Source: a virus
Direction: 5' to 3' (one strand)
Virus record (IMG/VR): IMGVR_UViG_3300046557_000579
Coordinates: 1-39,844 of that record
DNA: 39,844 nt
The notes under the pieces: model-generated
Told to the model about the DNA's origin: nothing
Database searches by the model: none
What the model saw: only the letters and a program-made list of their open reading frames with translations
Position numbers and translations under genes: made by a program
Shown here: in pieces, positions 160 through 36,267 of the stretch
Position numbering within the stretch: the stretch's first letter is position 1
Layout: every line of letters starts with the position of its first letter

Positions 160-252
160 GATCAAACGGAGGGGGGTACCGATGGGCAACGTGCTGGAGG
201 AGCTCCTCGTAGCGATCGGGATGGACAGTTCAGGCGTCGCCGAAGGCGCTGA
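1..252 (+). CDS. C-terminal end of tail assembly chaperone GT (-1 frameshift product)
   Basis: This open frame has no start of its own. Read from base 1 it gives GILPAPVANTVRGKTRR and continues to TGA at 250-252. The same sequence lies at 39686-39844 downstream of the G-type chaperone in its -1 frame, so across the circular join this is the tail of the longer chaperone, which would be about 261 residues in all. GT-type proteins coat the tape measure during tail assembly. The frame overlaps the tape measure start by 71 nt and ends in an arginine-rich stretch, which is unusual but leaves no earlier stop. Confidence 0.75.
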   Translation, partial: GILPAPVANTVRGKTRRPARPRDFIPQWAGKLAQDWTEMLAAVRQANRQLGGTDQTEGGTDGQRAGGAPRSDRDGQFRRRRRR

Positions 253-2161
253 CGAGGCCGCCGGGTCCGTCGAGAAGAGCTTCGCCGGGATCAGCACGGC
301 GGCGGCCGGCGCCGCGGTCGGCGGCCTGTTCATCGCAGGACTCGACTCGGCGATGGACCTGTCCGCCGTCGAGGCGACCATGCAGCGCCAACTCGGCCTG
401 ACCGCCGAGGAGGCGGACCGGGCCGGACAGATCGCCGGCGACGTCTACTCGGCGGGCTTCGGCGACAGCATGGAGGGCGTCGGCGAGGCCGTCTCGCAGG
501 TCGTCTCCCAGCTCGGCTCCTTCTCGGACATGACCAACGCGGACCTGATCGCCGTCACCGAGCAGGCCCAGGCGCTGTCCGACACCTTCGAGTTCGACGT
601 CGGCGACAGCGCGAAGATGGCCTCGCAGATGGTCGCGCAGGGCCTCGCGGGGGATGCCACCGAGGCGTTCGACGTGCTGACCAAGGCCGCGCAGACGTTG
701 CCGAAAGCGATGCTGGACGACCTGCCCAGCATCGTGTCCGAGTACGGCACGCACTTCCAGCGCATCGGCCTGGACGGCAAGACCGCGTTCGGCATGATGA
801 GCCAGTTCGTGCAGGCCGGTGGCAAGGACCTCGACCAGGCCGGCGACGTCCTGCACGAGTTCGCGCGCATCACCACCGAAGAAACCGATCGGGCGAAGGA
901 CGGCTTCAAGGGCCTGGGCCTGAACGGCGCCAAGATGCTCGCCGAGATCCACAAGGGCGGGCCCGAGGCGGCCGCCGCGCTGGGCACCACCATCACCGCC
1001 CTGCGCGGTGTGGAGGACCCCGCCAAGCGGGCACAGCTGGAGGTCGCGCTCTTCGGCGACATGGCCGGCGAGTCGGCCGACGCCCTGCTCGCGATGAACC
1101 CCCAGACCGCGTTGGCCGCGACCGGGATGGACGACACCGCCGGGGCCGCGCAGGGCCTGGTCGACTCCATGAAGGCGTCCCCCGCGCAGCAGTGGGACTC
1201 CGTCATGCGGACCCTGACGACGACGCTCGGCGAGGCGCTGCTGCCCGTCCTGGACGCCGTCTCCAGCTTCCTGAAGGACAACCCCGGGCTGATCTCCGCC
1301 GTGACCCCGGTGGTGCTGGTGCTCGCCGCGGCGCTCGCCGTGTGGGCCGCCGTGCAGTGGGTCCTCAACAGCGCGCTGCTGGCGAACCCGATCACGTGGA
1401 TCATCCTCGGCGTGGTCGCCCTGATCGCGATCATCGTCCTGATCGCCACCAAGACCACCTGGTTCCAGACCGCGTGGCACGCCATGTCCGACGCGATCGT
1501 GACCGCCTGGAACTGGGTGTGGACCAAGCTGCAGCAGGGGTTCGCCCTGCTCACGGACCTGTTCCTCAACTTCACCGGCCCCGGGCTGATCATCAAGCAC
1601 TGGGACACCATCAAGTCGGCGGTCGGCTCGGCGATGACCTGGGTCTCCAACACCGTCCACTCCGGCATCGATGCGGTGTCGCACTGGATCGACACCCTCG
1701 CCTCGATCCCCGGCAAGGTCGGCCGCTGGTTCTCCGACATCGGCGGGAAGATCGCCGCCCCGTTCAAGATCGGATTTGCCAGCGTCGCGAACTTCTGGAA
1801 CCGCTCGATCGGCGGGTTCAGCTTCAGCATCCCGTCCTGGGTGCCGGTGGTCGGCGGGAAGAGCTGGTCGATCCCGAACATCCCGATGCTCGCGGACGGC
1901 GGCATCATCCCGGCCACGCCGGGCGGCATGCTCGCCCTCGTCGGGGAAGGCCGGCAGGACGAGGCCGTCATGCCACTCGACCGGCTCGACAGCATGATGC
2001 GCTCGGTCGCCGGGGCAGTGGCCCGCACCGGCGGCGACGGAGGCGTTACCACCCGGGTCGTCCTCGACGTCACCGGGGCCGACAGCGAGTTCAAGACCCT
2101 GATCAAGAACATGGTCAGGACCGCCGGCCGCGGCGACGTCCAGATCGCCTTCGGCCAGTAG
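182..2161 (+). CDS. Tail tape measure protein
   Basis: The 659-residue protein should set tail length and help DNA cross the cell envelope. It follows the tail chaperone pair and precedes the large tail tip protein, the standard siphovirus order. The N-terminal part is alanine/glycine-rich and helical, with TMP-like text (GVGEAVSQVVSQLGSF). A hydrophobic segment at about residues 375-430 contains probable membrane helices. The C-terminal part has repeated tryptophans and helical segments, ending in the common LVGEGRQDEAVMPLDRL motif. At roughly 1.5 angstrom per residue it predicts a tail near 100 nm, short for the group. ATG at 182 has a purine-rich SD at 168-176. Confidence 0.93.
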   Translation: MGNVLEELLVAIGMDSSGVAEGADEAAGSVEKSFAGISTAAAGAAVGGLFIAGLDSAMDLSAVEATMQRQLGLTAEEADRAGQIAGDVYSAGFGDSMEGVGEAVSQVVSQLGSFSDMTNADLIAVTEQAQALSDTFEFDVGDSAKMASQMVAQGLAGDATEAFDVLTKAAQTLPKAMLDDLPSIVSEYGTHFQRIGLDGKTAFGMMSQFVQAGGKDLDQAGDVLHEFARITTEETDRAKDGFKGLGLNGAKMLAEIHKGGPEAAAALGTTITALRGVEDPAKRAQLEVALFGDMAGESADALLAMNPQTALAATGMDDTAGAAQGLVDSMKASPAQQWDSVMRTLTTTLGEALLPVLDAVSSFLKDNPGLISAVTPVVLVLAAALAVWAAVQWVLNSALLANPITWIILGVVALIAIIVLIATKTTWFQTAWHAMSDAIVTAWNWVWTKLQQGFALLTDLFLNFTGPGLIIKHWDTIKSAVGSAMTWVSNTVHSGIDAVSHWIDTLASIPGKVGRWFSDIGGKIAAPFKIGFASVANFWNRSIGGFSFSIPSWVPVVGGKSWSIPNIPMLADGGIIPATPGGMLALVGEGRQDEAVMPLDRLDSMMRSVAGAVARTGGDGGVTTRVVLDVTGADSEFKTLIKNMVRTAGRGDVQIAFGQ

Positions 2162-2174
2162 GAGAGGAGACCCC

Positions 2175-5100
2175 GTGCCGGACCTCGTCCACCACCTCAA
2201 GCTGGCCGGCGTCTGGACGGAGATCACGTCCGACGTCTTCGACCGTGACCCCGTCAGCATCAGCCGCGGCCGCGGCAGCGAGGCCGTGCGCACCGAGGCC
2301 GGCGAGCTGTCCCTGACCCTCAACAACCGGGACGGGAAGTACACCCCGCGCAACCCGGTCAGCCCGCTCTACGGGCTGATCGGGCGCAACACCCCGATCC
2401 GCACGAGCGTGCGGGCCGGCCGGTATCTGGACGTCGACGGCGCCGGGCAGGCGAGCACACCGGACACCGCCGCCCTCGACATCACCGGCGACATCGACGT
2501 CCGCCTCGACCTGTCCTCGGCGACCCTGACGGACGCGTCGGCGCCCTCCACCGAGACCATCGGCAAATTCCTCGCGGCAGGCGAGCAGCGGTCCTGGCGC
2601 CTCAACCTCAACGCGGGCACGATCACCTTCTCCTGGTCCACGGACGGCACCGCAGCCACTTTCCTGGCAGCCGTGGGCAACGACTCCGTGTCCGTGCCGT
2701 CCTCCCGACGGCTGGCGGTGCGCGCCACGCTCGACGTCAACAACGGTGCGGGCGGCTGGACCTGCACCTTCTACACCGGCCCGACCATCTCGGGCCCGTG
2801 GACTCAGCTCGGCACACCGGTCACCGGCGCCGGCGTCACCTCGATCTTCAACAGCTCGGTGCCGCTCACCATCGGTGCGATCCCCGGCAGCGCCCCGGCC
2901 AAACCGGTGATGCACGTGTACGCGGCCGAGGTCCGCAACGGCATCGGCGGCAGCATCGTCGCGAACCCGGACTTCACCGCGCAGGTCCGCGGCGCCACCA
3001 CGTGGGCCGACAGCGCGGGCCGGACCTGGACCGTCACCGCCCCGGCCGCGGTCTCCGACGTGTGGCCGCGCATCACCGCCGAGGTGTCCGAGTGGCCGCC
3101 GCGCTGGGACCTGTCCGGGCAGAGCGTGTGGACGCCGGTCAAGGCCGCGGGCATCCTGCGGCGCCTAGGCCAGGGCAAGACGCCCCTGCAGTCGCCGATG
3201 CGCCGCGAGTTCTCCAGCCCGACCCGGACCCACATCGTGGCGTACTGGCCGATGGAGGACGGCAGCCGCGCCACCCGGTTCGCCTCGGCCCTGGCCAGCG
3301 GCACCCCGCTGGCCATCACCGGCACCGCTGCCCCGGCGGCCTACACCGGGTGGCCGGCGTCCGGCCCGCTGCCCACCCTGGGCACCGCCACCGCCACCGC
3401 GGCCCTGCCCGTCTACACCGCCACCGGCCAGACCAGCTGCCGGTTCTGGCTCAAGCCCCCCGCGGCCGGTGTCGCCACCGAACAGCGCCTGGTCACCATG
3501 ACCGGCACCGGCAGCGCCGCCCGCTGGACGCTGAGCCTGCTGCCCGCCGGTACCCTGCGGCTGCGCGTGTACAGCAGCACGGGCGCGTCGCTGTACGACA
3601 GCGGCGCCCTCGGCACCAGCGTCAACGGCCTCGACACCAGCGTCGTCGTCGAGCTCACCGAGACCGCGGGCACTGTCGACTGGAACGTCCGTGCCCAGCA
3701 GTACAACCGGGACTCGCTGTTCGGGCCGATCACCCAGTGGGGCATCGGCAGCAACCTCGCTGCGGCGACCGTCGGCCGGATCACCACCCTCGCGGTGGGC
3801 GAGGACCAGGCGCTCGGCGACACCGTCGTCGGCCACCTCGCCGTAGCGGACGACCTCACCGCCTACGCCAACACCGCGTCCGCGTCGGCCGGGTGGGCGG
3901 GCGAGAGCGCACAGGCCCGCATCGCCCGGCTCTGCCAGGAGAACGGGATCTCCTTCCTCGGCTACAGCGCGGCAGGCTCCTCCGCACTGGTCGGGCCTCA
4001 GCCGATGGACACCCTGCTCGCCGTGCTGGAGAAGGCGGCCGAGGCCGACGGCGGCATCCTCGGCGAGCGCATCGACGAGCTCGGCCTGACCTACCGCAGC
4101 CGCGCCACCCTCTACAACCAGCCCGCCGCGATCGAGCTCAGCTTCGAGGCGGAGGGCGAGGTCCCGGCCGGTCTCGCCCCGGCCGTCGACGACCAGGGCG
4201 TCCGCAACGACGTGACGGTCAAGCGCCTCGACGGCAGCTCGGCCAGAGCCGTGCTGGAGAGCGGTCCCATGTCCGTGCAGGACCCGCCGTTGGGGGTCAG
4301 CCGGGTGGACTCCGCGCCCGAGCTCAACCTCTACTCGGACACGCAGCTGGCCGACGTGGCCGGCTGGCTCCTGCACGTGGGCACGACGGACGCCGCCCGC
4401 TACCCGAAGGTCCCCCTGGACCTCGTCGCCGGTCCGCACCTGATCGCACAGGTCCTCGTCGTCGACTCCGGTGACCGCCTCGTCGTCGACGACCCGCCGC
4501 CGTGGCTGCCACCCGACGCGATCGACCAGATGGTGCAGGGCTCACGCGAGACCCTGAGTCTGGCCACCTGGCGGATCGAGTACGCGTGCAGCCCGTACGA
4601 GCCGTGGCGCGTCGGCGTCCTCGACGACACCTTCCTCGGCCGGGCCGACACCGAGGGCAGCACGCTGGCCGCCGCGGCCACCTCGACCGCGACCGCGCTG
4701 TCCGTCGCCACCGGCACCGGCCCGACCTGGATCACCGACCTGTCGGAGGCCCCCTTCGACCTGACCGTCGCCGGGGAGGTCGTCACCGTCGTCGCCGCGG
4801 GCACCCAGCTCGCCGTCAACCCCCTGCTCCTGACCGACAGTTCCGGCTGGTCCGGGATGAACTCGACGGTGGTCCGGTCGACGGCGGTCGTCCACACGGC
4901 CCGGGACGGGGAAGCGTCCCTCCTCATCACCCCGAACGGCGTCTCCGCCTCGGGCGGTGCGAGCGGCACACCCACCGGCGTCGGCACCGTCACACCCGGC
5001 GCCTCCTACCGGGTGTGCCTGTGGGCCTACAGCCCCGGCGGTCACGCCGACCTGCGACCCGCCGTCGACTGGGCCGACGCTGCCGGCACTTTCCTGTCGA

Positions 5101-5390
5101 GCGGCCTCGGCTCCGGGACCGCCGCCCCGGCCGGCGTGTGGACGTACATCGAACAGACCCTGGTCGCCCCGGCCCTGGCCAGCCAGGCCACCCCGCGGGC
5201 CCGCCACGGCGGCACCCCCGCGGCCGGCGCCATCTGGTACGCGTGGGCGATCCGGCTCGTCCCCGTCGCCACCATCACCACCGCCAGCCCACAGACCCTG
5301 AGCGTCGTCCGCTCCCGCAACGGCGTCGTCAAGGCCCAGTCGTCCGGGGCCGACGTGCGGCTCACCACCCCCATGATCCTCAGCCTGTAG
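2175..5390 (+). CDS. Large minor tail / tail tip protein with carbohydrate-binding-like domains
   Basis: This 1071-residue protein follows the tape measure by 13 bp and is probably the distal tail and host-contact protein. It opens with a tail-type domain (about 1-80, with LSLTLNNRDGKYTPRNP), a motif I know from Streptomyces phage minor tail proteins. Two beta-rich LamG-like stretches follow, at about 85-280 and 350-520 (the second begins YWPMEDGS). A baseplate-hub-like middle runs to about 830, and a carbohydrate-binding-like domain sits at about 880-1010. Start is GTG 2175 with GGAGAGGAG upstream. It likely recognises cell-wall sugars; the domain names are by eye. Confidence 0.82.
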   Translation: MPDLVHHLKLAGVWTEITSDVFDRDPVSISRGRGSEAVRTEAGELSLTLNNRDGKYTPRNPVSPLYGLIGRNTPIRTSVRAGRYLDVDGAGQASTPDTAALDITGDIDVRLDLSSATLTDASAPSTETIGKFLAAGEQRSWRLNLNAGTITFSWSTDGTAATFLAAVGNDSVSVPSSRRLAVRATLDVNNGAGGWTCTFYTGPTISGPWTQLGTPVTGAGVTSIFNSSVPLTIGAIPGSAPAKPVMHVYAAEVRNGIGGSIVANPDFTAQVRGATTWADSAGRTWTVTAPAAVSDVWPRITAEVSEWPPRWDLSGQSVWTPVKAAGILRRLGQGKTPLQSPMRREFSSPTRTHIVAYWPMEDGSRATRFASALASGTPLAITGTAAPAAYTGWPASGPLPTLGTATATAALPVYTATGQTSCRFWLKPPAAGVATEQRLVTMTGTGSAARWTLSLLPAGTLRLRVYSSTGASLYDSGALGTSVNGLDTSVVVELTETAGTVDWNVRAQQYNRDSLFGPITQWGIGSNLAAATVGRITTLAVGEDQALGDTVVGHLAVADDLTAYANTASASAGWAGESAQARIARLCQENGISFLGYSAAGSSALVGPQPMDTLLAVLEKAAEADGGILGERIDELGLTYRSRATLYNQPAAIELSFEAEGEVPAGLAPAVDDQGVRNDVTVKRLDGSSARAVLESGPMSVQDPPLGVSRVDSAPELNLYSDTQLADVAGWLLHVGTTDAARYPKVPLDLVAGPHLIAQVLVVDSGDRLVVDDPPPWLPPDAIDQMVQGSRETLSLATWRIEYACSPYEPWRVGVLDDTFLGRADTEGSTLAAAATSTATALSVATGTGPTWITDLSEAPFDLTVAGEVVTVVAAGTQLAVNPLLLTDSSGWSGMNSTVVRSTAVVHTARDGEASLLITPNGVSASGGASGTPTGVGTVTPGASYRVCLWAYSPGGHADLRPAVDWADAAGTFLSSGLGSGTAAPAGVWTYIEQTLVAPALASQATPRARHGGTPAAGAIWYAWAIRLVPVATITTASPQTLSVVRSRNGVVKAQSSGADVRLTTPMILSL

Positions 5391-5398
5391 GGAGACAC

Positions 5399-5911
5399 AT
5401 GGCCACCACGTATCCCGACTGGCGGGCTGGGCAGCGGGTCACCGCCGCCCAGCTCCTCGCCGCCCAGCCCCTGCACGTCGTCCGCGGCAGCGACTCGGCC
5501 GGCCGCGTCAACAACACCCTGGCGAATGACGACGTCCTCACCCTCGCCGTCGAGGCGAACGCGGTCTACAACCTGCACGCCTGGCTCGGCTTCACCGCGC
5601 TGGCCGCCGCCGACTTCCGCGCGGGCTGGTCCGTGCCGGCCGGGTCCACGCTGCAGTGGACGCCCTACACGCAGAACGGTGGCGCCGCGAGCACCGTCGG
5701 CGGGGTCATCACCGACCGGTCCAGCGCCGCCACCGCGCAGACCAGCGGCGGCATCGGCGCCGGCAACATCATGACGATGTTGATCTTCGGCACGCTGAGG
5801 ATCGGTGCGACCGCCGGATCGATCATCCTGCAGTGGGCCCAGGACACCACCAACGCCACCGGCACCGTCCTCAAGGCCGACTCCTCGCTGACGCTCAAGC
5901 GCACCGCCTGA
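5399..5911 (+). CDS. Small tail/fibre-associated protein, unknown function
   Basis: The protein has 170 residues and begins MATTYPDWRAGQRVTAAQLL, a beginning seen in many Streptomyces phage and prophage tail-end proteins. The remainder is small-residue-rich with alternating hydrophobics, consistent with a beta-sandwich fibre tip or a head-fibre-like domain, and it ends LTLKRTA. The open frame extends much further upstream, but that part lies in the coding frame of the large tail protein. ATG 5399 is chosen because GGGAGA lies just before it, in the 8 bp after the previous stop. The role is inferred from position. Confidence 0.75.
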   Translation: MATTYPDWRAGQRVTAAQLLAAQPLHVVRGSDSAGRVNNTLANDDVLTLAVEANAVYNLHAWLGFTALAAADFRAGWSVPAGSTLQWTPYTQNGGAASTVGGVITDRSSAATAQTSGGIGAGNIMTMLIFGTLRIGATAGSIILQWAQDTTNATGTVLKADSSLTLKRTA

Positions 5912-5928
5912 CCACCCCTCAACCGCCC

Positions 5929-5956
5929 GCCCCCGTGCCGACCGGCCGGGGGCTTT
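5929..5956 (+). terminator. Hairpin terminator between tail genes and lysis cassette
   Basis: GCCCCCG (5929-5935) pairs with CGGGGGC (5947-5953), followed by TTT. It sits 18 bp after the tail gene and before the endolysin SD (GGAGG, 5967-5971), so it could lower or separate lysis gene expression from structural expression. Confidence 0.55.
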
Positions 5957-5976
5957 CCCATGCCCGGAGGACACCC

Positions 5977-6795
5977 GTGCAGCTCCTCACCCGCGCGCAG
6001 CTCGGCTTCCCGCCGACCGCGGCCGCCACCATGACCACCGCCCGCGGCGTCAAGGTCCACTACGAGGGATCGCCCGTCCCCGTCACCCTGCTCGGCGACC
6101 ACACCCAGTGCGTCGAGCTGTGGCAGACAATCCGCCGCGTCCACCTCGCCAACCCCACCGAGCACTGGGTCGACATCGCGTACAACCACGGCGTGTGCCC
6201 GCACGGCGTCGTCCTGGAGGGCCGCGGTACCGGCCGCCGCTCCGGGGCCAACGGCTCCGAGGCCCTCAACACGGGGCACTACGCGGTGTGCGCGCTCCTT
6301 GGCGCCTCCGGCCTCACCTTGCCCACCGACGCCATGCTGCACGGCCTGCGCGATGCCATCGAGCACCTCCAGGCGCACGGCGCCGGCAGCGAGATCCGCG
6401 GGCACCGGGACGGCTACGCGACCAGCTGCCCGGGCGGCCCGCTGTACGCGTGGGTCCAGGCAGGCGCACCGCGGCCCGGCGGCACCACGCCCGCCCCGAA
6501 GCCGACCCCGGCACCGCCCGCCAAGAGCACCCCGCCCCCGCCCGCGTACGCGACGTACGACGGACGCCCGCTGCGGAACTTCACCCAGACCGCCCGGGTC
6601 CTGGTCTGGCAGACCTACATGGCGTGGCGCGGCTGGCGCATCACCCGCGACGGCAAGTACGGCGAACAGTCCGAAGCCGTGTGCCGCGCGTTCCAGACCG
6701 AGTGCAACGCCCAGGGCTACCCGGTCGGGGCGGTCGACGGTGTCGTCGGCACCCGCACCTGGGGCGCCACCAAGTCCAAGCCCGTCACCAGGTAG
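5977..6795 (+). CDS. Endolysin: N-acetylmuramoyl-L-alanine amidase with peptidoglycan-binding domain
   Basis: The 272-residue enzyme should cut the amide bond between muramic acid and the stem peptide to lyse the host. The N-terminal amidase_2/PGRP domain (about 20-163) shows the zinc-ligand pattern H28 (VHYEG), H143 (RGHRDGY) and C151 (TSCPGG), with a YNHG stretch at 69-72. A proline/threonine linker at 165-192 leads to a PG_binding_1-type domain (about 198-270, ending AVDGVVGTRTWGATK). No signal peptide is visible, so export would depend on the adjacent holin. GTG 5977 is chosen for GGAGG at 5967; the upstream open frame has no SD. Confidence 0.93.
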   Translation: MQLLTRAQLGFPPTAAATMTTARGVKVHYEGSPVPVTLLGDHTQCVELWQTIRRVHLANPTEHWVDIAYNHGVCPHGVVLEGRGTGRRSGANGSEALNTGHYAVCALLGASGLTLPTDAMLHGLRDAIEHLQAHGAGSEIRGHRDGYATSCPGGPLYAWVQAGAPRPGGTTPAPKPTPAPPAKSTPPPPAYATYDGRPLRNFTQTARVLVWQTYMAWRGWRITRDGKYGEQSEAVCRAFQTECNAQGYPVGAVDGVVGTRTWGATKSKPVTR

Positions 6796-6807
6796 GAGAA
6801 CCCCACC

Positions 6808-7062
6808 ATGACCGAAGGCCGCCGCCGCACCATCCGTACGGCACTCGCGTTCACGATCAGCGCCGCCGCCAGCGCGCCGCTTCTCGTCCACACCGCCGGC
6901 CTGCCCGACACACTGCCGGGCCTGAGCACCGGCCTGGCCGTGTGCGCATCCGTGACCCGCCTCATGGCGCTGCCGGTGGTCAACGGCTGGCTGCCCGGCT
7001 GGCTGAAGATGACGCCGGCCAAGGCGGAGCTGCCGCCGTTCGACCCTGCGAGCCGCGAATGA
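6808..7062 (+). CDS. Holin-like membrane protein
   Basis: This is an 84-residue protein with a basic N terminus (MTEGRRRTIR) and two hydrophobic segments, at about 12-30 and 36-60, before a polar C-terminal tail. Size, topology and position 12 bp after the endolysin fit a class II holin that forms lesions in the membrane and releases the endolysin. The stop overlaps the start of the next gene (ATGA), so the two are translationally coupled. SD is TAGGAGAA. There is no direct catalytic or sequence signature, so the call rests on context. Confidence 0.75.
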   Translation: MTEGRRRTIRTALAFTISAAASAPLLVHTAGLPDTLPGLSTGLAVCASVTRLMALPVVNGWLPGWLKMTPAKAELPPFDPASRE

Positions 7063-7421
7063 GCGACTCCACAGGCATCGCCCCCGTCGACCTGGCCGTG
7101 ACCTGGTCGGTCGCGGCGGCCGCCATCGTCGGCCTGGCCGCGATGATCTGGCGCGGCGCCCGGGGGATCGCCCGCAAGCTCGACCACATCCTCGACGACT
7201 GGGCAGGCGAGGAAGCCCGGCCCGGCGTCCCAGCCCGGCCCGGGATCGTCGAGCGGATCAGCCGGATGGAGGAGCGCCAGGTGCTGGCGGGTGAGCGCCT
7301 CGACCGGATCGAGCATGAACTCCAGCCCAACTCGGGCTCGTCGCTGCGCGACGCCGTCGACCGCGTCGAGCGGTCGGTGCGCCCACCCGCGCCCGAGGAC
7401 TCACCGTTACCCGCCCGGTAG
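7059..7421 (+). CDS. DUF2746-like membrane/coiled-coil protein of the lysis cassette
   Basis: The 120-residue protein has one N-terminal membrane helix (about 15-35, VTWSVAAAAIVGLAAMIW). A charged, probably coiled-coil region follows, with ISRMEERQVLAGERLDRIEHEL. This layout matches the DUF2746 family of actinophages, found next to holins. It may be a second holin-like or spanin-like component, or a holin modulator. It overlaps the holin by 4 nt and is the last gene of the late transcript, with a strong hairpin right after it. Confidence 0.7.
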   Translation: MSDSTGIAPVDLAVTWSVAAAAIVGLAAMIWRGARGIARKLDHILDDWAGEEARPGVPARPGIVERISRMEERQVLAGERLDRIEHELQPNSGSSLRDAVDRVERSVRPPAPEDSPLPAR

Positions 7422-7492: not shown

Positions 7493-8713
7493 TCAGCTCT
7501 CGCCGCGCGAGTCCTTGACGTGCCGGGTAAGGCGGGACAAGTAGTCGTTCTCGCCGCCGCCGAGCAGTTCCCCGACCTTGCGGACGGAGATCGTCTGGCG
7601 CCCCTCGGCGAGCAGGTCCGCGTACGCCCGGACCCGATCGATATCGGCGTCGTCGAGGGGGCGCCGGGTACGTTCCCGGCGGCCACCAGTGGCACGCTCC
7701 TTGCCTTTCCCCCCAAGCGATTCCGCCGCCCGCGCGGGGCCCGACGAGGGGCCCTTCGGGGTGGCGAGGGGAACGCTCCTGCCGCCCTCTCCGTCGTCGC
7801 CGTCGGGGCGTCCGACCGGCGAGCGGTACATGCTGCCGACGGGGCCGGTGAACGCGGCGAGCAGGTCGTCGGGGACGGTGTCGGGGAACAGCGGCTCGGC
7901 GTCCCGCTGGGCGGCCAGCGCGTCGGCCATGCGCCGCGTGGACTGTGCACGCAGAGCGACCATGGCGGGGGTGAGGCCGACCTCGCGGGTGCCGTGGTGG
8001 ACCTCCCACGCGTCGGTGAAAGCCTGCTCGAACTCGGCCTCGCCGAAGGTGGCGGCGGCGACGATCCGCTCGGCGGTGCGCTGGACGTCCCGGTGCGCGG
8101 CCGCCCGGTTCTTGGCGTGCACGCGGCGGGCCTTCTCCGTGGCGCGTTCCTCCTTCGTGCGACGGGATGTCCCGTGCCGGCCGACGCACCGCAGTTCCCA
8201 GAACGCGACGCCGGCGAGGGAGGCCGCGCCCATGACGAGGGCGAACCAGTCGGTGAGGCCGCCGTTGTGGGCGACGTTGATGGCGGCCGCGATGGCCGCG
8301 CATCCCCACATTGCCACCCGGTAGGGGGTGACCGGGCGGCCGTCCTTCATGGCCCGGGATGCGCCGACGGTGGCGGACCAGGCGCCGAGCTCCAGCATCA
8401 GCGCCAGGGCGGTGGCCGAGCCGGGGTCGGTCTTGCCGGTCAGCGCGCCCACCTGGGAGCTGATCGCCGGGATCACGGCCAGCAGGATGAGGGCGACGGA
8501 GAACGCGGTGTCGGCCTCGGCGGCCAGCCAGCCCCGGGCGGCGGCGGCCTGGGCCGTACGGCGCTGGGCCCGGTCGGCCTGCTCGCGCCGGCGGCGCTGG
8601 TGCTCGGCGGCCTGGTCCTTGCGGGCCTGCTCCGCCTGGGCCTCGCGCTCCTGACGGCGGAGCTGTGCCTCAAGCCGCTTGTCCTCGCGGCGCTCCTTGT
8701 AGAACTCGCTCAC
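7493..8713 (-). CDS. DUF2637 membrane protein of the transfer module (Spd-like), with C-terminal DNA-binding-like domain
   Basis: The 406-residue protein has a highly charged N-terminal coiled coil (about 1-60, rich in R, E, Q), then several membrane helices at about 65-190 in the pattern of DUF2637 proteins. These are encoded beside tra genes on Streptomyces plasmids and integrative elements, where Spd proteins help plasmid spread through mycelium. The C-terminal about 60 residues (VRKVGELLGGGENDYLSRLTRHV) look like a helix-turn-helix. It is the last gene of the leftward operon and lies just beyond the octamer array at 8739-8862, which its C-terminal domain could also contact. Start is GTG 8713 with SD AGGAGGAA. 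The Spd role is from context. Confidence 0.8.
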   Translation of the reverse strand: MSEFYKERREDKRLEAQLRRQEREAQAEQARKDQAAEHQRRRREQADRAQRRTAQAAAARGWLAAEADTAFSVALILLAVIPAISSQVGALTGKTDPGSATALALMLELGAWSATVGASRAMKDGRPVTPYRVAMWGCAAIAAAINVAHNGGLTDWFALVMGAASLAGVAFWELRCVGRHGTSRRTKEERATEKARRVHAKNRAAAHRDVQRTAERIVAAATFGEAEFEQAFTDAWEVHHGTREVGLTPAMVALRAQSTRRMADALAAQRDAEPLFPDTVPDDLLAAFTGPVGSMYRSPVGRPDGDDGEGGRSVPLATPKGPSSGPARAAESLGGKGKERATGGRRERTRRPLDDADIDRVRAYADLLAEGRQTISVRKVGELLGGGENDYLSRLTRHVKDSRGES

Positions 8714-8738: not shown

Positions 8739-8862
8739 CTGGTCAGGGCGGTGTCAGGGGTCAGGTGTCAGAGGGTGTCAGGCGGGGCGTCACGGGCGTC
8801 TGACACCGCGTCTACCTAGGGAGATGGGTGTCAGGGCGCCCGTGACTGTCAGGGGGCGTCAG
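8739..8862. repeat. Octamer repeat array, candidate clt / TraB recognition locus
   Basis: GTCAG, on either strand, occurs nine times in about 120 bp. The full octamer GGTGTCAG is at 8750, 8764, 8774 and 8827, and inverted at 8800-8807. Near matches are CTGGTCAG (8739), GGGGTCAG (8757), GGCGTCAC (8786), ACTGTCAG (8845) and GGCGTCAG (8855). The array fills the gap behind the TraB-like gene and its last copy covers that gene's stop codon. In Streptomyces conjugative plasmids TraB binds 8-bp direct repeats (TRS) in the clt locus next to traB, so length and place both fit. Confidence 0.75.
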
Positions 8863-10850
8863 GCGTCCGCGAGGGCGGGCACGATGCGCCAGCGGCCCGC
8901 CTTGCCGGTGGTCTGCAGGCGCCCGGTGGAGGCCGCTTCCTTGAGGCGCTCGGACACCCAGGGGCGGCTGTAACCGTTGGCGTCGCACCAGTCGACGAAG
9001 TCTTTCGGGCCGACGACGAGCTGCCCGCGGTGCTCGAAGTCGGCGAGGGCCTCGCCGAACAGGTAGCGGGCCTCCTCGGGGCTGGGCCGGTGGCCGCCGT
9101 CCGGGGCGAACAGGGGGGTGGCGTCCGCGTCGGGGAGCTCGGCCTCGGGGTCGATGTCCATGTCCTCGGGGTCGACCAGGGCGGCGGTCATCTCCTCGTC
9201 CTCCTCGGCTGCGGGGGCGGTGGTCTGCCGGTCGGCGGCCCGGTCGGTGTACGCCTTCCCGGCCACGGACGCGGCGGCGGCCGCGGTGACCGGGTCGACG
9301 CCCATCCGGTACGGGGCGAACTCGCGGGTGACCCACTCCAGGACGACGGGGTCGTTGCGGAAGGTCCGCGAGGGGGTCGCCCACAGCGGCTCCGCGACGC
9401 CCTTCTGTACGAGGTAGCAGTAGCCCGGCTTCTTGTTGCCCCACCCGCCGGGGTTGGCTCCGGCGTCGAGGACATCGGACGGCAGGGCGAACCCGGCATC
9501 GCGCTCGTCCACGCCGAAGCACAGCGCCGAGGGCAGGCTGGCCCGGGTGTCGGTGCTGACCTGGTATCCGGACGCGCGCTGCATGGAGACCACCAGCGAG
9601 CATCCGGCGGACCGAGCCTCCTGCGCGATGCCGGTGAACGCGTCGTCGTCGACGGCGCGCAGGGTGTGCGCGGCCTCCTCGAACCAGGCGACCAGGTACG
9701 GCATGCCAGGGCACGCGCAGGCATGGCCGTCGGGGCGGCAGGTGTGGGCCGGGTCGTCCTGCACCGCGGCGGCGTCCGGCGTCCACTCCCGGTAGCGGTG
9801 CCGGCCGAGCCACTGCTGACGGGCCGGGACGGCGGCCTTGAGCGCCTCAATCATGATCTCGGCGCCGGGCCCGTCCTCGACGACCCAGTCGCATCCGGGG
9901 AACAGCGGGCCGAGATCCTGGCCGCGCTTGGGGTCGGACAGCCACACGATGACGTCGCGCCGGGTCTGGACCTCGGTGAGGACGTCCATCGCGCCCTCGG
10001 TCTTGCCGGACCCGGTGACGCCCATGATCAGCAGGTGGATCGCCTGGGGGAGGGTGAGCTGCAGCTCGTCGCCGTTGTCGTAGACGCCGACGACGAGGGG
10101 CTCGGCGATCGACCCGCCGGGGGAGGACGGGCCCGGGTACCAGAGCACGTCCTTGAGGACGTCGATGGGCACGACGGTGAGGGTGCCGCGACGGGCGGAG
10201 TCCGGGTCGGGGGAGTACCGCACCGCGGTGGTCGGCACGTCGAGGGCCGAGGCGATCCGCGGCAGGGACTTCGTGACGTCCTCGTTGGTGGCCTCCCCGG
10301 CCGGCAGGGCGACCGGCACCGTGAGCCGGTTCGGGGCGATCTCGGCCTTGCCGAGCTTGGCCTTGGCAAGGCCGACCTTCGCGAGGAGACCGGCGTCGGT
10401 CTGCTCGCCCGAGGTGGTGGCGCCGTCCGGGTTGAGGCGCATCATCTGCCGGATGTTCCAGGACAGGGCGCCGACCACGCCGCCCATCAGGTACAGGTCG
10501 GGGAGCGGCCCGGCGAGGGGGGAGGCCAGGGACGCGGCGGTGACCCACGCCGAGGCGGCGGCGACGGTGATGGCGGAGTGCAGGCGCCGGGCCGCGTTGG
10601 TCTTCCGCCCGGCCCACCAGGTCGCGCCGGTCAGGGCGACGGACGACAGGGTCAGGCCGGTGGCGCCGGCCGCCGAGTCGGCCCACATCAGGTGGCCGCC
10701 GACGCCGGCGATGCCGACCGCGGCCACCCCGGCCCACGCCGGGGCGTGGGGCTTGGCCCGGTGCCAGAGGTACGCCTTCAGGCCGGAGCCGCTCGACGCG
10801 CCCTGGAGCTGCTCGTTGTGCCGGTCGTCGGCAGTCTTCTTCTCGCTCAT
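8859..10850 (-). CDS. FtsK/SpoIIIE-type DNA translocase, TraB-like plasmid transfer protein
   Basis: This 663-residue ATPase resembles the single-protein pumps that move double-stranded DNA between Streptomyces hyphae. Membrane helices lie at about 37-55, 62-80, 92-112 and 118-130. The motor domain carries Walker A GVTGSGKT (277-284), a WLSDPKRG stretch (303-310) and a Walker B-like PYLVAWFEEA (383-392). A short insert just before it holds C371, H376, C378 and C380. The C-terminal about 65 residues (from PSPEEARYLFGEAL) form a probable winged helix like the TraB domain that reads clt octamers. ATG 10850 has SD GGAAGGGG, 15 bp after the upstream gene. A chromosomal-type FtsK is less likely given its neighbours. 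Confidence 0.9.
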   Translation of the reverse strand: MSEKKTADDRHNEQLQGASSGSGLKAYLWHRAKPHAPAWAGVAAVGIAGVGGHLMWADSAAGATGLTLSSVALTGATWWAGRKTNAARRLHSAITVAAASAWVTAASLASPLAGPLPDLYLMGGVVGALSWNIRQMMRLNPDGATTSGEQTDAGLLAKVGLAKAKLGKAEIAPNRLTVPVALPAGEATNEDVTKSLPRIASALDVPTTAVRYSPDPDSARRGTLTVVPIDVLKDVLWYPGPSSPGGSIAEPLVVGVYDNGDELQLTLPQAIHLLIMGVTGSGKTEGAMDVLTEVQTRRDVIVWLSDPKRGQDLGPLFPGCDWVVEDGPGAEIMIEALKAAVPARQQWLGRHRYREWTPDAAAVQDDPAHTCRPDGHACACPGMPYLVAWFEEAAHTLRAVDDDAFTGIAQEARSAGCSLVVSMQRASGYQVSTDTRASLPSALCFGVDERDAGFALPSDVLDAGANPGGWGNKKPGYCYLVQKGVAEPLWATPSRTFRNDPVVLEWVTREFAPYRMGVDPVTAAAAASVAGKAYTDRAADRQTTAPAAEEDEEMTAALVDPEDMDIDPEAELPDADATPLFAPDGGHRPSPEEARYLFGEALADFEHRGQLVVGPKDFVDWCDANGYSRPWVSERLKEAASTGRLQTTGKAGRWRIVPALADA

Positions 10851-12274: not shown

Positions 12275-12571
12275 TCAGCCCCGGGTGGGGATGGCCCGGC
12301 GGAAGAGGACGTTGTTGCGCTCGGCGGCGGTCAGGCCGCCCCACACGCCGTACGGCTCGCGCCTGTCGAGAGCTCCGTCGAGGCAGGCGGCCTGTATCGG
12401 GCACACCTGGCAGATGCTCTTGGCGACGTCCTCGCGGGCGTTCCTCGCCGCGGTGGGCTCGCCCTCGTAGCTGTAGAAGGTCCCCGGGTGCACACCGGCG
12501 CAGGCCGGGCGCTGAGATTCGCTCTGGTGGGCGGCAGCCGCCCGGGTGGTTTTCGTTGTACGGTTCCGCAT
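12275..12571 (-). CDS. WhiB-family iron-sulfur transcription factor
   Basis: The 98-residue protein carries the four WhiB cysteines C24, C54, C57 and C63 (PACAG ... CQVCPIQAAC), which hold a [4Fe-4S] cluster, and the turn GVWGG (75-79) followed by L-x-x-x-E-R. The C terminus is short and basic (LFRRAIPTRG). WhiB proteins act with the main sigma factor. Phage examples such as WhiBTM4 alter host division and superinfection. It heads the transfer operon and is divergent from the GntR-like gene, so it may tune transfer or host differentiation. ATG 12571 has SD GGAAGG. Confidence 0.92.
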   Translation of the reverse strand: MRNRTTKTTRAAAAHQSESQRPACAGVHPGTFYSYEGEPTAARNAREDVAKSICQVCPIQAACLDGALDRREPYGVWGGLTAAERNNVLFRRAIPTRG

Positions 12572-12816: not shown

Positions 12817-13641
12817 ATGGCCGGCAAGGCGGAGGATGCAGCCGCGGCGATCCGCGCAAAGATCGACAGCGGCGAGATGCCCCCCGGGACGAAGCTCCCG
12901 ACGACGGCCGACCTGGCCGCCGAGTACGACTTCGACGTGAACACCGCGCGCCGGGTGATGACCCTGCTCAAGGGGCAGGGGCTCGTCGAGTACCGCCCCG
13001 GCCGCGGGGGCAAGGGCGGCGGTGGCGGAACGTACGTCCGCGAGCGGCCGGCCGACCGGATCATCCGGGCCAGGAAGATGGAGCGGGACCACCTCGGTTA
13101 CTACTCCGGCAAGGCCGTGCAGCACTGGCGCATTGTCGAGGGCACGCGCACTGAGGTCGGCACCGACGCCGCACCTCCGGACATCGCGGCCCTGCTCGGC
13201 GTCGAGCCGGGGACGCAGGTCGTCGTCCGGCGCCGCCTCAACGGGGATCCGGGGGTGCCCGCCCACCGTCAGATCACCGACAGTTGGCTGCACCCGGACA
13301 TCGTCGAGGCGCTACCGGTGCTCGCCGGCGACACGGGACTCGGCGGGATGTACGACCGGATCGAGGGGTGGACCAGGTCGCCGATTGCCTGGGAGGAAAC
13401 CGTCACGGCTGCGATGCCCAGCCCGGCCGAGGCCGAGGCTCTGCTCCTGCCGCCGACCGGCGTGCCCATGCTCCGGATACTCCGGACGTCGACAATCCGA
13501 GTGGGGCGACGGCGAGTTGTTGCCGAGGTCAACGACATCAGGATGTCGGCGGAGCTGTTCGCCGTGCGGTATCAGGTGGCGCGCGCGGGCGAGGCGCGCT
13601 GGCCGGTTCGACCGGCCACGGCGGACTTCTACTCGGGGTAA
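12817..13641 (+). CDS. GntR/HutC-family repressor, KorSA-like
   Basis: The 274-residue regulator has an N-terminal winged helix (about 5-70) with the GntR pattern PPGTKLPTTADLAAEYDFDVNTARRVMTLLKGQGLVEYRPGRG, then a glycine run. A UTRA-type effector domain follows (about 120-250, with DIAALLGVEPGTQVVVRRR). On Streptomyces plasmids and pSAM2, KorA/KorSA proteins of this family repress tra genes, which are lethal when unregulated, and also repress themselves. Divergent placement beside the transfer operon fits that role. ATG 12817 has SD GGAGGAGG. Expression is probably autoregulated through sites in 12707-12782. Confidence 0.88.
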   Translation: MAGKAEDAAAAIRAKIDSGEMPPGTKLPTTADLAAEYDFDVNTARRVMTLLKGQGLVEYRPGRGGKGGGGGTYVRERPADRIIRARKMERDHLGYYSGKAVQHWRIVEGTRTEVGTDAAPPDIAALLGVEPGTQVVVRRRLNGDPGVPAHRQITDSWLHPDIVEALPVLAGDTGLGGMYDRIEGWTRSPIAWEETVTAAMPSPAEAEALLLPPTGVPMLRILRTSTIRVGRRRVVAEVNDIRMSAELFAVRYQVARAGEARWPVRPATADFYSG

Positions 13642-19904: not shown

Positions 19905-20987
19905 ATGACCCGCGCACCCAGCACGCTCGACTTGGGCGCCGGCCCCGGCGGCTGGTCCGAGGGCCTTCGCCGCTGGCACGGCATCCGTACCATCGGTGTC
20001 GAGTGGGACACCGCCGCCTGTGCCACCCGTGCCGCCGCCGGCCACTGCACGGTGCGCGCCGACATGGCCCAGCTCTCCACCGCCCCGATGCGCGGCCGCG
20101 TCCGCCGCCTCATCGCGTCCCCGCCCTGCCAGGCATGGTCCCGCGCCGGCAAGCGACTGGGCCTCGTCGACCAGCCCCTCGTCCACCAGGCTGTCTACGA
20201 CCTCGCCCACGGCCGCGACACCCGCACCGCTCTGCTCGTCGCGTGCAAGGACCCGCGCTCCCTTCTCGCCGCCGAACCCATGCGCTACCTCCACGATCTC
20301 CGCCCCCAGGACGTCGTCCTGGAGGAGGTCCCCGACGTGCTGCCGCTGTTCCGCCAGTACGCCGCCGTCCTGCGCGGCTGGGGCTACAGCGTGTGGGTGG
20401 GCGAGCTGAACGCCGCCGACTACGGGGCGCCGCAGACCCGACGCCGAGCCATCCTCATCGCGTCCCTGGTACGCGCCGTCCAGGCCCCGGACCCGACACA
20501 CGACCAGCACGGCGGGCAGGTCGACCTGTTCGGTTCGACCCGGGCCCGTTGGGTCACGATGGCGGACGCCCTCGGCTGGCAGGCGGACGGGATAGCGCTC
20601 CGCAACGGCAACCAGGCTGGCGCTGCCGTCCGCGGCTTGGACGAGCCTGCCCCGACGATCGCGTTCGGCAACAACGCGGCGCGGGTCGAGTGGGTCCGCT
20701 CCAGACCGGCAACCACCGTGTGTGCCACCGGCCGCATCGCACCGCCCGGTCACCGGAACCGCGCCCCGGGCGGCGAGTCGCAGTTCGCCAGCCTGGACAC
20801 GGTGCGCATCACCGCACAGGAGGCCGGGGTACTGCAGTCGTTCCCTGCCGACTACCCATGGCGGGGGTCGCAGACCAAGCAGTTCGAGCAGATCGGCAAC
20901 GCGGTGCCGCCGCTGCTGGCCGCGCACGTCTGCGCTGCCGCGTTCGGTCTGCCGCAGCCCGTCCCCGCCCGTGCGGTTGCCGCCTGA
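19905..20987 (+). CDS. DNA (cytosine-5) methyltransferase
   Basis: The 360-residue enzyme transfers a methyl group from SAM to cytosine C5. Motif I is DLGAGPGG (9-16), motif IV PPCQAWS with catalytic C75, motif VI LEEVP (139-143, where ENV is usual), motif VIII QTRRR (177-181), and motif X QIGNAVPPLLA near the C terminus. The region between about 195 and 300 is the likely target-recognition domain. No restriction enzyme lies nearby, so it probably protects phage DNA from host restriction. ATG 19905 lies 6 bp after the clamp gene, preceded by GAGAGGATG. Confidence 0.93.
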   Translation: MTRAPSTLDLGAGPGGWSEGLRRWHGIRTIGVEWDTAACATRAAAGHCTVRADMAQLSTAPMRGRVRRLIASPPCQAWSRAGKRLGLVDQPLVHQAVYDLAHGRDTRTALLVACKDPRSLLAAEPMRYLHDLRPQDVVLEEVPDVLPLFRQYAAVLRGWGYSVWVGELNAADYGAPQTRRRAILIASLVRAVQAPDPTHDQHGGQVDLFGSTRARWVTMADALGWQADGIALRNGNQAGAAVRGLDEPAPTIAFGNNAARVEWVRSRPATTVCATGRIAPPGHRNRAPGGESQFASLDTVRITAQEAGVLQSFPADYPWRGSQTKQFEQIGNAVPPLLAAHVCAAAFGLPQPVPARAVAA

Positions 20988-29321: not shown

Positions 29322-29819
29322 GTGGCCATGGGCAGGAGGGGACCGGCGCCGCGGCCGACCGCGCTGAAGCTGCTGCACGGCGTCGACAAGCACAACCCGG
29401 GCCGGGTCAACCGGGACGAGCCGCGGCCGGACGAGGCCGACATCGCGCCGCCGGCCTGGCTGTCGCCGTCCGCGCTGGAGGTCTGGGACACCGTCGCCGA
29501 CGACCTGATCGCCAAGGGCGTGCTCACCGCGTGGGACGTCGAGGCGCTGGCGAACTGGTGCGACGCGGTGGCCCGCCGCCGGGACGCCGCCGCGCACGTC
29601 GAGGACGAGGGCGCGGTCATCGAGCAGGACGTGTTCAACAAGAACGGCGACGTGTCCGGCAGCCGGCTGGCGAAGTCGCCCTGGCTGCTGGCGCTGGACG
29701 CCGCCGATGCCCAGGTCCGCTACTACGGCGCACGGTTCGGGCTGACGCCGTCCGACCGGTCGCAGCTGTCGATCGGCGGGGCGGATACCGGGCTGGGGGC
29801 CGAGCGTCTGCTGTCCTGA
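29322..29819 (+). CDS. terS: Terminase small subunit, P27 family
   Basis: The 165-residue protein has P27-family features: GRRGPAPRPTALKLLHG near the start, PPAWLSPSALEVWDTVADDLIAKGVLTAWD, ALANWCDAVARRRDA, then a C-terminal KSPWLLALDAADAQVRYYGARFGLTPSDRSQL. It binds the packaging site and brings the large subunit to DNA. GTG 29322 is given; ATG 29328 two codons later is equally plausible. It is followed 15 bp later by the large subunit. Confidence 0.93.
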   Translation: MAMGRRGPAPRPTALKLLHGVDKHNPGRVNRDEPRPDEADIAPPAWLSPSALEVWDTVADDLIAKGVLTAWDVEALANWCDAVARRRDAAAHVEDEGAVIEQDVFNKNGDVSGSRLAKSPWLLALDAADAQVRYYGARFGLTPSDRSQLSIGGADTGLGAERLLS

Positions 29820-29834
29820 CCAGGGGGAGGGGTG

Positions 29835-31661
29835 ATGGCCGCGCCGACCACCGCCCGCACCGCACCGGCCCGTCGTACCGCGGCCGCCCGCCCGCCGGGC
29901 AGCGCCCGGCCGCGGCGACGGGCCGTCAAGCTCGACCCGCACAAGCGGTGGCGGCCGGTCTCCCGCAAGGGCGGGCAGTGCGGCTACACCCTCGACGGCA
30001 AGACGTGCACCCGGTCCGGCGCGCACTACTGCGAGCCGCGCGCCGACCGGGTCGTGAAGTTCTTCGCAGAGCTCCTCGTCCACCCGATGGGCGCCCTCGC
30101 CGGGCAGCGGTTCATCCTCGCGCCGTGGCAGGAATGGGAGATCATCCGCCCGTTGTTCGGCGAGGTGATCTGGTCCGAGCAGTGGGGCCGGTACGTCCGC
30201 CGCTACACCCGCGCCACGATCGTCATGGCGAGGAAGAACGGCAAGTCGGCGATCCTGTCGGGCATCCTGCTGTACCTGCTGGTCGGTGACGGCGAGGAGA
30301 GCGCCGAGGTCTACGGCGCGGCCGCCACGACCCGCCAGGCGTCGAAGGTGTTCGGCCCCGCGGTCAAGATGGCGAAGAAGTCGCCGCTGCTGGCCCGCCG
30401 GCTGGAGGAGCGGAAGGCCGAGCGGCGCCTGGTCGACGAGACGTCCGGCAGCTTCTACGAGGTCATCCCGGCGGACGCCGACAACGAGCTCGGCCACAAC
30501 CCGCACGGCTTCGTCCTGGACGAGGTCCTCAGCCAGCCGGACGGGTCGCTGTGGGAGGCGATGCGTACCGCGGCCGGCGCCCGGTGCCAGCCGCTCATGC
30601 TGGCGATCACGACCGAGACGAAGGACGGCGTCAGCTTCGGCGCCGAGATGATCGACGAAGCGGACCGGGTCATGGAGGACCCGGCCCGCGCGGGCCACCA
30701 CTTCGTCTTCGTGCGGAAGCTGCCGCGCAACCAGGACGAGCTGGACCGGCTGCACCGGATCTTCCCCGGCCGCCCCGACCTTCCCGTCTCCCTCGACCCG
30801 TGGGACGAGGCGAACTGGTACTGGCCCAACCCCGGCCTCGGCGTTTTCCTCAGCATTCAGGCGCTGCGCGAGGAGGCCGAGGAGGCCCGCAACGAGCCGA
30901 AGCTCAAGAACGGGTTCCTCCAGTTCCGGCTCAACCAGCGCGTCTCGGCGGTCTCCCGCTGGATCGCGATGGACCTGTGGGACGCCAACCTGGGGGAGAA
31001 GATCGAGGACCCGCAGGAGATCGCCGAGCGCCTCGCCGGGCAGCGCTGCTGGGGCGGCCTGGACCTGTCCTCGAAGCTGGACCTCACCGCGTGGTCGCTC
31101 TACTTCCCCTCCGGCGAGGTGCTGTGGCGGCTGTGGGTACCGGAGTCCGTGGTGCCCGTCCTCGACGGCCACACCGGCGACGTCTTCGGGCAGTGGGTCC
31201 GTGCCGGATGGATCACCGCCACCGACGGCGACACCATCGACTACGACCGGATCTACGACGACATCGAGGCCGACCACCGCCGCTACTCGATCATCGACAT
31301 CACCTACGACAAGTGGTCGGGGGAGCCGGTCCGGCAGGAGATCGAGAAGCGCACCCGCCTGAAGATGTACGAGGGCGACACCACGTACATGCGGATGACG
31401 CCGCCGATGACCGAGCTGATGCGCGCGCTGAAGGCCCGCGAGGTCACGCACTTCGGCAACCCGGTCGCCCGGTGGATGGCCGACAACATCGAGTGCAAGA
31501 GCCCCGTCGACGACCCGGACCGCATCCGGCCGGTGAAGCCGGCGCGCGACAAGAGCGGTAAGAGGATCGACGGCGTCGCGGCCCTGCTCTTCTCCCTGGA
31601 CGGCAAGCTCCGTGGCCTGCCGCCCCCGTCCGTCTACGAGACGAGAGGCATGACCGGATGA
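29835..31661 (+). CDS. terL: Terminase large subunit
   Basis: The 608-residue packaging motor has ATPase motif RKNGKS (133-138, Walker A-like), GFVLDE (225-230, Walker B with D229/E230) and a C-terminal nuclease with GLDLSSKLDLTAW, IDITYDK and WMADNIE. The N-terminal region has C49, C58, H64, C66, a possible zinc knuckle. It translocates DNA into the prohead and cuts it. ATG 29835 follows GGGGAGGGG; the GTG at 29832 adds only one residue. Length fits the HK97/P27-linked terminase_1 group. Confidence 0.95.
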   Translation: MAAPTTARTAPARRTAAARPPGSARPRRRAVKLDPHKRWRPVSRKGGQCGYTLDGKTCTRSGAHYCEPRADRVVKFFAELLVHPMGALAGQRFILAPWQEWEIIRPLFGEVIWSEQWGRYVRRYTRATIVMARKNGKSAILSGILLYLLVGDGEESAEVYGAAATTRQASKVFGPAVKMAKKSPLLARRLEERKAERRLVDETSGSFYEVIPADADNELGHNPHGFVLDEVLSQPDGSLWEAMRTAAGARCQPLMLAITTETKDGVSFGAEMIDEADRVMEDPARAGHHFVFVRKLPRNQDELDRLHRIFPGRPDLPVSLDPWDEANWYWPNPGLGVFLSIQALREEAEEARNEPKLKNGFLQFRLNQRVSAVSRWIAMDLWDANLGEKIEDPQEIAERLAGQRCWGGLDLSSKLDLTAWSLYFPSGEVLWRLWVPESVVPVLDGHTGDVFGQWVRAGWITATDGDTIDYDRIYDDIEADHRRYSIIDITYDKWSGEPVRQEIEKRTRLKMYEGDTTYMRMTPPMTELMRALKAREVTHFGNPVARWMADNIECKSPVDDPDRIRPVKPARDKSGKRIDGVAALLFSLDGKLRGLPPPSVYETRGMTG

Positions 31662-31867
31662 CCACGCCCGAGCCACCCCTTGACCGGTGGGACGTCCTCG
31701 TCCTCACCGGTATCGCCATGCTCGGCACCGGCCTGGCGCTGCTCGCCCTGTGGCTGGGCATCGCCGTGGCCGGCGCCCTGCTCCTGGCCCTCGGCGTGTA
31801 CGGCGGGATCCAGGCCGGCCGGGCCGACGCCGCCCGGCCCGGCATCCCGCACCAGAGAGGAGGCTGA
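31658..31867 (+). CDS. Small membrane protein in the packaging operon
   Basis: The 69-residue protein has two adjacent hydrophobic helices (VLVLTGIAMLGTGLALLALW and IAVAGALLLALGVYGGI) and short polar ends. It overlaps the terminase stop by 4 nt and precedes the portal. Small membrane proteins occur here in other actinophages. A role in prohead anchoring or superinfection exclusion is only speculation. Confidence 0.65.
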   Translation: MTTPEPPLDRWDVLVLTGIAMLGTGLALLALWLGIAVAGALLLALGVYGGIQAGRADAARPGIPHQRGG

Positions 31868-31869
31868 CC

Positions 31870-33882: not shown

Positions 33883-33900
33883 GACCCCGAGAGGAGACCC

Positions 33901-34554: not shown

Positions 34555-34601
34555 CCGCCCGCCCCGCCCACACCGACCCCGTACACCCCGAGGGAGACCC
34601 C

Positions 34602-35840: not shown

Positions 35841-35877
35841 CCCCGGGCCCCGGCCCCACCCGAGACAAGGAGAGACG

Positions 35878-36267
35878 ATGCGCACCGACCTCGTCCACCA
35901 CATCGACCCGGCGGTCACCCTCGCTCCGGCCGCCAAGACCGCGTCCGCCAACGGCACCGGCGTCGACCTCGCGAACTACGACGCCGCGGTCGTCGAGATC
36001 CACGCCGGCGCGTGGACCGACGGCACCCACATCTTCGAGGTGCAGGAGTCCGACGCGTCCGCGTCCGGCTACACCGCGGTCGCCGACGCCTACCTCGACG
36101 GCGCCGAGCCGACCGTGTCCAGCGGCGGCACCGCCGCGCAGATCTACACGGTCGGCTACAAGGGCATCAAGCGGTACATCCGCGTGATCACCACCGTGTC
36201 CGGCACCACCACCGGCGCCGTCTACGGCGTGACCGTCCTGCGCGGCAAGGCCCGCGTCAAGCCGTAA
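35878..36267 (+). CDS. Small head protein, possible decoration protein
   Basis: The 129-residue protein starts MRTDLVHHIDPAVTLAPAAK and is beta-rich, with LANYDAAVVEIHAGAWTDGTHIFEVQESDAS and KRYIRVITTVSGTTTGAVYGVTVL. Similar proteins follow the capsid gene in many actinophages and may decorate the capsid, but no signature proves it. ATG 35878 follows AAGGAGAG. Confidence 0.7.
   Translation: MRTDLVHHIDPAVTLAPAAKTASANGTGVDLANYDAAVVEIHAGAWTDGTHIFEVQESDASASGYTAVADAYLDGAEPTVSSGGTAAQIYTVGYKGIKRYIRVITTVSGTTTGAVYGVTVLRGKARVKP

Follow-up and report, generated by a model that had tools for sequence, protein, structure and literature searches.

The window, i.e. the whole 39,844-bp stretch of DNA that was analysed, carries a set of transfer genes and, immediately behind one of them, a dense array of short repeats (Table 1). 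The original prediction of a TraB-like gene was confirmed by the NCBIfam profile NF041214.1 (plasmid_TraB), which the deduced product matches over positions 1–638 of 639 and above the curated cut-off (842.9 bits, cut-off 800; E-value 1.7e-253), and by the presence of a TraA gene (NF041213) upstream. This product also weakly matches the FtsK motor structures 2iuu/2iut and is 51–67% identical to the TraB proteins of Streptomyces plasmids, its best plasmid relatives; a Pfam search named neither TraB nor its C-terminal domain. The product of the gene on the other side of the array shows a match to DUF2637 just below the cut-off (PF10935, E=2e-4) and is 61% identical to a DUF2637 protein of the Kitasatospora plasmid NZ_CP108486. 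Together, the TraB, TraA, DUF2637, WhiB and GntR genes make up the tra operon that is commonly found in Streptomyces elements. TraB itself was found above the family cut-off in 54 of the 393 genomes drawn from the genus and, in a second draw from the family, in 14 of 150.

Table 1. Features in and around the repeat array (positions in the window). The assignments to TRS, core and clt are predictions.
Feature	Position	Strand	Remarks
Putative membrane spread gene, DUF2637, SpdB-like	7493..8713	-	directly downstream of clt
Partial TRS CTGACC	8741..8746	-	
TRS CTGACACC, direct, downstream group	8750..8757	-	
Degenerate TRS CTGACCCC	8757..8764	-	
TRS CTGACACC, direct, downstream group	8764..8771	-	
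TRS CTGACACC, direct, downstream group	8774..8781	-	
Inverted TRS, CTGACACC on + strand	8800..8807	+	
clt core CATCTCCCTAGGTAGACGC	8808..8826	-	CCTAGG at 8815-8820; aligned position conserved across TG, TA, TC classes
17-bp core segment AAACCCCTAGGCAGGAG			
TRS CTGACACC, direct, upstream group	8827..8834	-	
Partial TRS CTGACA	8847..8852	-	
Degenerate TRS CTGACGCC	8855..8862	-	overlaps traB stop codon
traB, FtsK/SpoIIIE-type DNA translocase, 663 aa	8859..10850	-	stop codon 8859-8861; ORF intact
TraB C-terminal domain, predicted; recognition helix contains YSRPWVSERLKEAA	8862..9100	-	AlphaFold2 model
traA, plasmid transfer protein TraA	10866..11426	-	NF041213.1, 214.7 bits, cut-off 80; upstream of traB
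WhiB-family regulator	12275..12571	-	PF02467
GntR/UTRA repressor	12817..13641	+	PF00392, PF07702; divergent from tra operon

The array adjoins traB, beginning at its stop codon, and comprises nine GTCAG/CTGAC cores within positions 8742–8862, eight of them in + orientation (core starts at 8742, 8753, 8760, 8767, 8777, 8830, 8848 and 8858) and one inverted (8800). Five cores are part of a full octamer, GGTGTCAG, which occurs on the + strand at 8750, 8764, 8774 and 8827 and on the − strand at 8800–8807; in the orientation of traB this octamer reads CTGACACC and contains TGACACC. The last core, in GGCGTCAG at 8855–8862, has one mismatch to the octamer and overlaps the stop codon at 8859–8861. Every countable detail of the original prediction is thereby confirmed, namely nine cores and five full octamers in about 120 bp behind the translocase stop, with the last copy overlapping that codon. 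It had stressed neither that one of the five copies is inverted nor the palindrome CCTAGG at 8815–8820, between the inverted octamer and the copy at 8827.

Counting of the octamer across the record and in shuffled sequences indicated that it is not equally common elsewhere: all five copies of the record lie inside an 85-bp segment (8750–8834). The total as such is only mildly unusual, because the mean of whole-record shuffles was 1.78 and 4 out of 100 reached five copies. By contrast, when the 149-bp intergenic region was shuffled 5000 times with its dinucleotides preserved, no 8-mer occurred more than three times, and the record contains no further 150-bp stretch in which any 8-mer occurs five times. 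It is thus the clustering, and not the record-wide total, that goes beyond all 5000 local shuffles and indicates that the array did not arise by chance. The region accordingly has the short direct repeats in excess of chance (five octamers in 85 bp) by which a clt is recognized. Elsewhere in the record, which is otherwise G+C-rich, GCTAGAAA occurs three times in a short stretch from position 14935, and these copies are possibly iterons.

We predict, with a probability of about 0.92, that the repeat cluster behind traB is the clt, or docking site, of the TraB protein encoded in the window. The strongest support comes from pWTY27 (NC_013667), a theta plasmid of Streptomyces whose published clt occupies 175 bp, with 16 bp inside the transfer gene and the other 159 bp beyond it, and contains four copies of TGACACC as direct repeat DC1 (PMC3583192). 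The candidate clt of the window thus shares its repeat and its position with a published clt whose transfer protein is 56% identical to the TraB of the window. The statement that the octamer is not one recognized from described plasmids was consequently wrong, since the heptamer within it had been published as DC1 (PMC3583192). Both loci have direct copies of the unit, an array start overlapping the end of the transfer gene, a CCTAGG core, one inverted copy and TraA upstream; they differ in that the candidate of the window is located on a phage-plasmid (see below). Binding, footprints and the dependence of transfer on clt were established by others for pWTY27, and the mode of action that we propose for the element in the window is carried over from this homolog.

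More generally, the region aligns in part, at 71–81% identity, with the clt regions of plasmids. The clt loci of pJV1 and pSN22 also lie directly behind traB and consist of direct repeats, with an inverted element seen in pSN22, but their unit is CCGCACA(C/G) instead of CTGACACC, their TraB helix is [D/E]RSWVS[K/R], and the pSN22 core, AATCCCCACGTCAC, differs from that of the window. For pSVH1 and pIJ101, papers citing Vogelmann et al. (2011) describe TRS/clt of 8-bp repeats that TraB reads with alpha-3, a helix of its winged-helix domain; the likeness of these 8-bp repeats to those of the window is one of description.

A comparable recognition helix might exist in the TraB of the window. An AlphaFold2 model of its last 95 amino acids, built from three sequences only (pLDDT 74), shows the expected order of elements, H-E-H-H-E-E, with most of the segment SRPWVSERL in the third helix. 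Foldseek matches to this model were largely to winged-helix domains, none of them below an E-value of 0.03, and FtsK gamma was absent among the top 50; no Pfam HTH family exceeded its cut-off in the C-terminal domain. A PDB sequence search with this domain retrieved only calmodulin-like matches, judged to be due to chance. At its middling confidence, the model is consistent with the winged helix that has been published for TraB, without amounting to proof of one.

The repeat varies among relatives as NNACACC, and we compared these variants with the helix, written as a-R-b-W-V-S-X, in 65 TraB loci. Helices SRPWVS[A/E] (S/P/A or S/P/E for a, b and X) pair with TGACACC in 33 loci, SRSWVSL (S/S/L) with TAACACC in nine, plus two more with mixed TA/TC repeats, [G/T]RSWVSK with TCACACC in three and [D/E]RSWVS[K/R] with GCACACC in five, the pJV1/pSN22 type. 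The helix of the window, YSRPWVSERL, belongs to the TGACACC class and its array is made of TGACACC, an indirect match in specificity. A rule deriving the first two bases of the repeat from the three helix residues fits 61 of the 65 loci, the same ones to which it was fitted; the exceptions are L029 and L070, with mixed TA/TC repeats, and two RGRSWVSG loci with AG, while L043 is exceptional in combining P with K in its helix and keeping a TG repeat. Among 21 further loci, the ten that reach 45% identity and contain three or more NNACACC repeats have the predicted TG, all of them being of the TG class. The distant loci L131, L133 and L138, with S plus R, have GC repeats, in which the second base is C as predicted but the first is G and not T; behind their stop codons we observed GTGCGCACACC repeats and alternating CG stretches. 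Another type of repeat, a CGGAACA 7-mer in about ten copies, is found behind traB in L085, whose distant TraB has the helix KTSSWVRREL.

Non-TG repeats and helices with S plus L, K or R change together. On a tree of TraB built without its last 75 residues, seven of nine independent pairs on well-supported branches change in the same direction, none in the opposite direction and two are undifferentiated (p=0.0156). Since the sequences for helix and clt lie next to each other, a single recombination could have moved both. However, in 55 close pairs with different TRS, which are not mutually independent, identity falls in the helix (78.5%) and in the clt (75.8%) compared with the segment between them (83.5%) and the upstream sequence (81.9%), whereas 92 pairs of the same class, likewise not mutually independent, show no such fall (83.4, 83.7, 84.7 and 85.2%). 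Transfer of helix and clt in one recombination is counted against because identity stays high between them. These comparisons suggest that helix residues set the first two bases of the TRS, although, since the rule was found in these same data, we regard it as a hypothesis with internal support and not as a proven code.

The joint change of repeat and helix also bears on what protein the array would bind. Readings of the array as an operator, an iteron or a packaging site were considered and are less likely than a clt. In the first two, a GntR or WhiB repressor or a replication initiator, and not TraB, would bind the repeats; units of 7–8 bp are typical of operators and iterons alike, a GntR gene lies 4 kb away, and pWTY27 has 8-bp iterons elsewhere in its sequence (PMC3583192). 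Nevertheless, a repeat that changes with the TraB helix, the footprint of the TraB homolog on TGACACC in pWTY27 (PMC3583192) and the absence of the octamer from the GntR/tra promoter and from the surroundings of the replication genes in the window make such a role very improbable.

Besides the repeats, the putative clt loci share an overall architecture. In dozens of Streptomyces loci, the traB stop codon is followed by direct TRS, a core, one inverted TRS, which is exact in many loci and mismatched in others, and further direct TRS. Alignment of the regions behind the stop codon gave the core consensus CAAACCCCTAGGCAGxxGC, and the conserved core CAAACCCCTAGGCAG, between the direct repeats and the inverted copy, is the same in loci with TGACACC, TAACACC and TCACACC. 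The strict core pattern was found in 54 of the 73 loci that reach 45% identity; some of the others have one-base variants (CTCTAGG) or are truncated at a contig end, and different cores are present in the pJV1 group and in a group near 50% identity. Not a single CCYTAGG was found in the 249 kb of sense-strand sequence that precede the clt in these loci.

In pWTY27 (L001), the core placed from the traB stop at 9818 corresponds to positions 9849–9868 and fills the unprotected gap, 9850–9866, between the two published DNase I footprints of the transfer protein, at 9797–9849 and 9867–9897 (PMC3583192). The published clt deletions (PMC3583192) can be read against this map: one of 10 bp within the gene lowered transfer about 1000-fold, whereas deletions of 88 and 129 bp caused losses of about 10-fold and 1000-fold, respectively. 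If it extends inwards from the distal end, which is how the published text reads, the 129-bp deletion would begin at 9849, keeping the four direct repeats and removing the core and the inverted copy; likewise, the 88-bp deletion, with its lower cost, would spare both of them. This suggests that the core has a function of its own. We tentatively combine both results in a proposal to which we give somewhat less than even odds: residues b and X would choose the second base of NNACACC (G by default, A with S plus L, C with S plus K or R), and D or E before R would go with a G in the first base, while the core CAAACCCCTAGGCAG, independent of the TRS and not protected by TraB, would be used by another factor, or through a property of the DNA itself, to start transfer.

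What our analysis shows is the array and its clustering, an intact traB, an architecture conserved among loci and the agreement of the helix class with the class of the repeat. In the mechanism that we propose, the C-terminal winged helix of TraB would contact the CTGACACC units through the recognition helix SRPWVSERL; direct TRS flanking the CCTAGG core, plus the inverted TRS beside it, would nucleate a TraB hexamer, which would then pump the circular double-stranded element into a neighbouring hypha. Alternatively, the locus might descend from a working clt and no longer function on the phage. In pWTY27 all four perfect direct copies precede the core, whereas the window has a single one between stop codon and core and three after it, and its first units are CTGACGCC and CTGACAG; moreover, the structural phage relatives lack TraB, so that the virus does not depend on transfer to complete its life cycle. 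We nevertheless consider such decay unlikely, because the 663-aa ORF is intact, four direct and one inverted perfect copies remain, the core and the order of elements are kept, and L003, whose TraB is 65% identical, is similarly sparse upstream of the core.

The carrier of this clt had gone unnoticed in the original prediction. The record is one of a virus, and its virion genes occupy positions 29322–39844 and 182–7421, encoding terminases, portal, protease, capsid, connectors, major tail and tape measure proteins, an endolysin and a holin-like protein, and the head genes show ca. 77% DNA identity to those of Streptomyces phage Chymera (NC_073457). The other half is plasmid-like, with DnaB, beta clamp, GntR, tra, a weak ParA-like gene and a tyrosine integrase, and with matches to plasmids; it also includes a gene for a cytosine-C5 DNA methyltransferase (19905–20987). 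The ends of the contig (1–159 and 39686–39844) overlap by 159 bp, 156 of them identical, which closes the map to about 39,685 bp; the record, classed as linear in the database, is thus probably a complete circular map. A virion gene set therefore coexists on one replicon with plasmid-type genes for replication, partition and transfer; such hybrids, or phage-plasmids, are known.

The closest counterpart in plan is pFP4 (NC_017833), a circular plasmid-phage of ca. 40 kb from a Streptomyces isolate (Chen et al. 2012, cited in PMC6950372). Its genes follow the same order, from structural genes, integrase, ParA, replication and GntR to divergent WhiB/DUF2637/TraB, but its TraB, of another subfamily, is only 32% identical, the repeat region is different and the terminase is 35% identical. 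Chymera shares the order of tail and lysis genes, and differs by having integrase, immunity repressor and excise in place of the plasmid backbone, with no TraB found and no clt. From the virion genes alongside a plasmid half, the overlapping ends and the plan of pFP4, we conclude that the clt sits on a pFP4-like phage-plasmid. Artificial joining of a plasmid module to phage genes during metagenome assembly could likewise explain why the structural genes match Chymera and the remainder matches plasmids; this is improbable, however, given that the gene order is that of pFP4, from an isolate, and that the map closes.

A phage-like record with terminase, portal and capsid genes also raises the question of whether the array could be a packaging or end site (pac/cos). 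The terminase genes begin some 20 kb away, though, while Chymera, the closest phage, has its terminase gene beside the genome end, and small plasmids, among other elements, have the same kind of array behind traB; a pac or cos site is thus very improbable. TraB was found neither in Chymera nor in the other nearest phage relatives (G002–G006). Scanning of viral contigs with TraB peptide patterns retrieved no relative, and the core pattern gave 11 matches, ten of them to one recurring low-G+C sequence and none in a contig encoding TraB; these scans hence lend no support to a clt on other viruses. Two plasmids of about 40 kb with a distant TraB, NZ_CP108511 and NZ_CP108429, were not counted as phage-plasmids because no virion genes are annotated in the stretches examined, 26.8 of 41.1 kb and 37.8 of 39.7 kb, respectively.

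In all, the repeat unit was already known from pWTY27, and what is new is the phage-plasmid that carries it, the proposed rule linking helix and repeat, and the conserved core. The position of this core between footprints points to a step at the start of transfer that is not described in the sources that we consulted. If the code is true, the TraB of the window would bind CTGACACC and not GTAACACC or GTCACACC. An open question posed earlier (PMC9513070) is whether one co-resident Streptomyces element can use the TraB of another, and a rule from residues to bases makes such cross-use checkable from helices and repeats. Streptomyces niveiscabiei B-24457 contains three elements with TraB helices of different classes: L008, SRSWVSL with TAACACC; L019, RDRSWVSK with GCACACC; and L009, SRPWVSE, whose contig ends before the clt. 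This trio would fit separate transfer systems that do not interfere with one another. Finally, the extension of a known type of clt to a phage-plasmid implies that one and the same element may spread in two ways, as a virus and through pumping by TraB.
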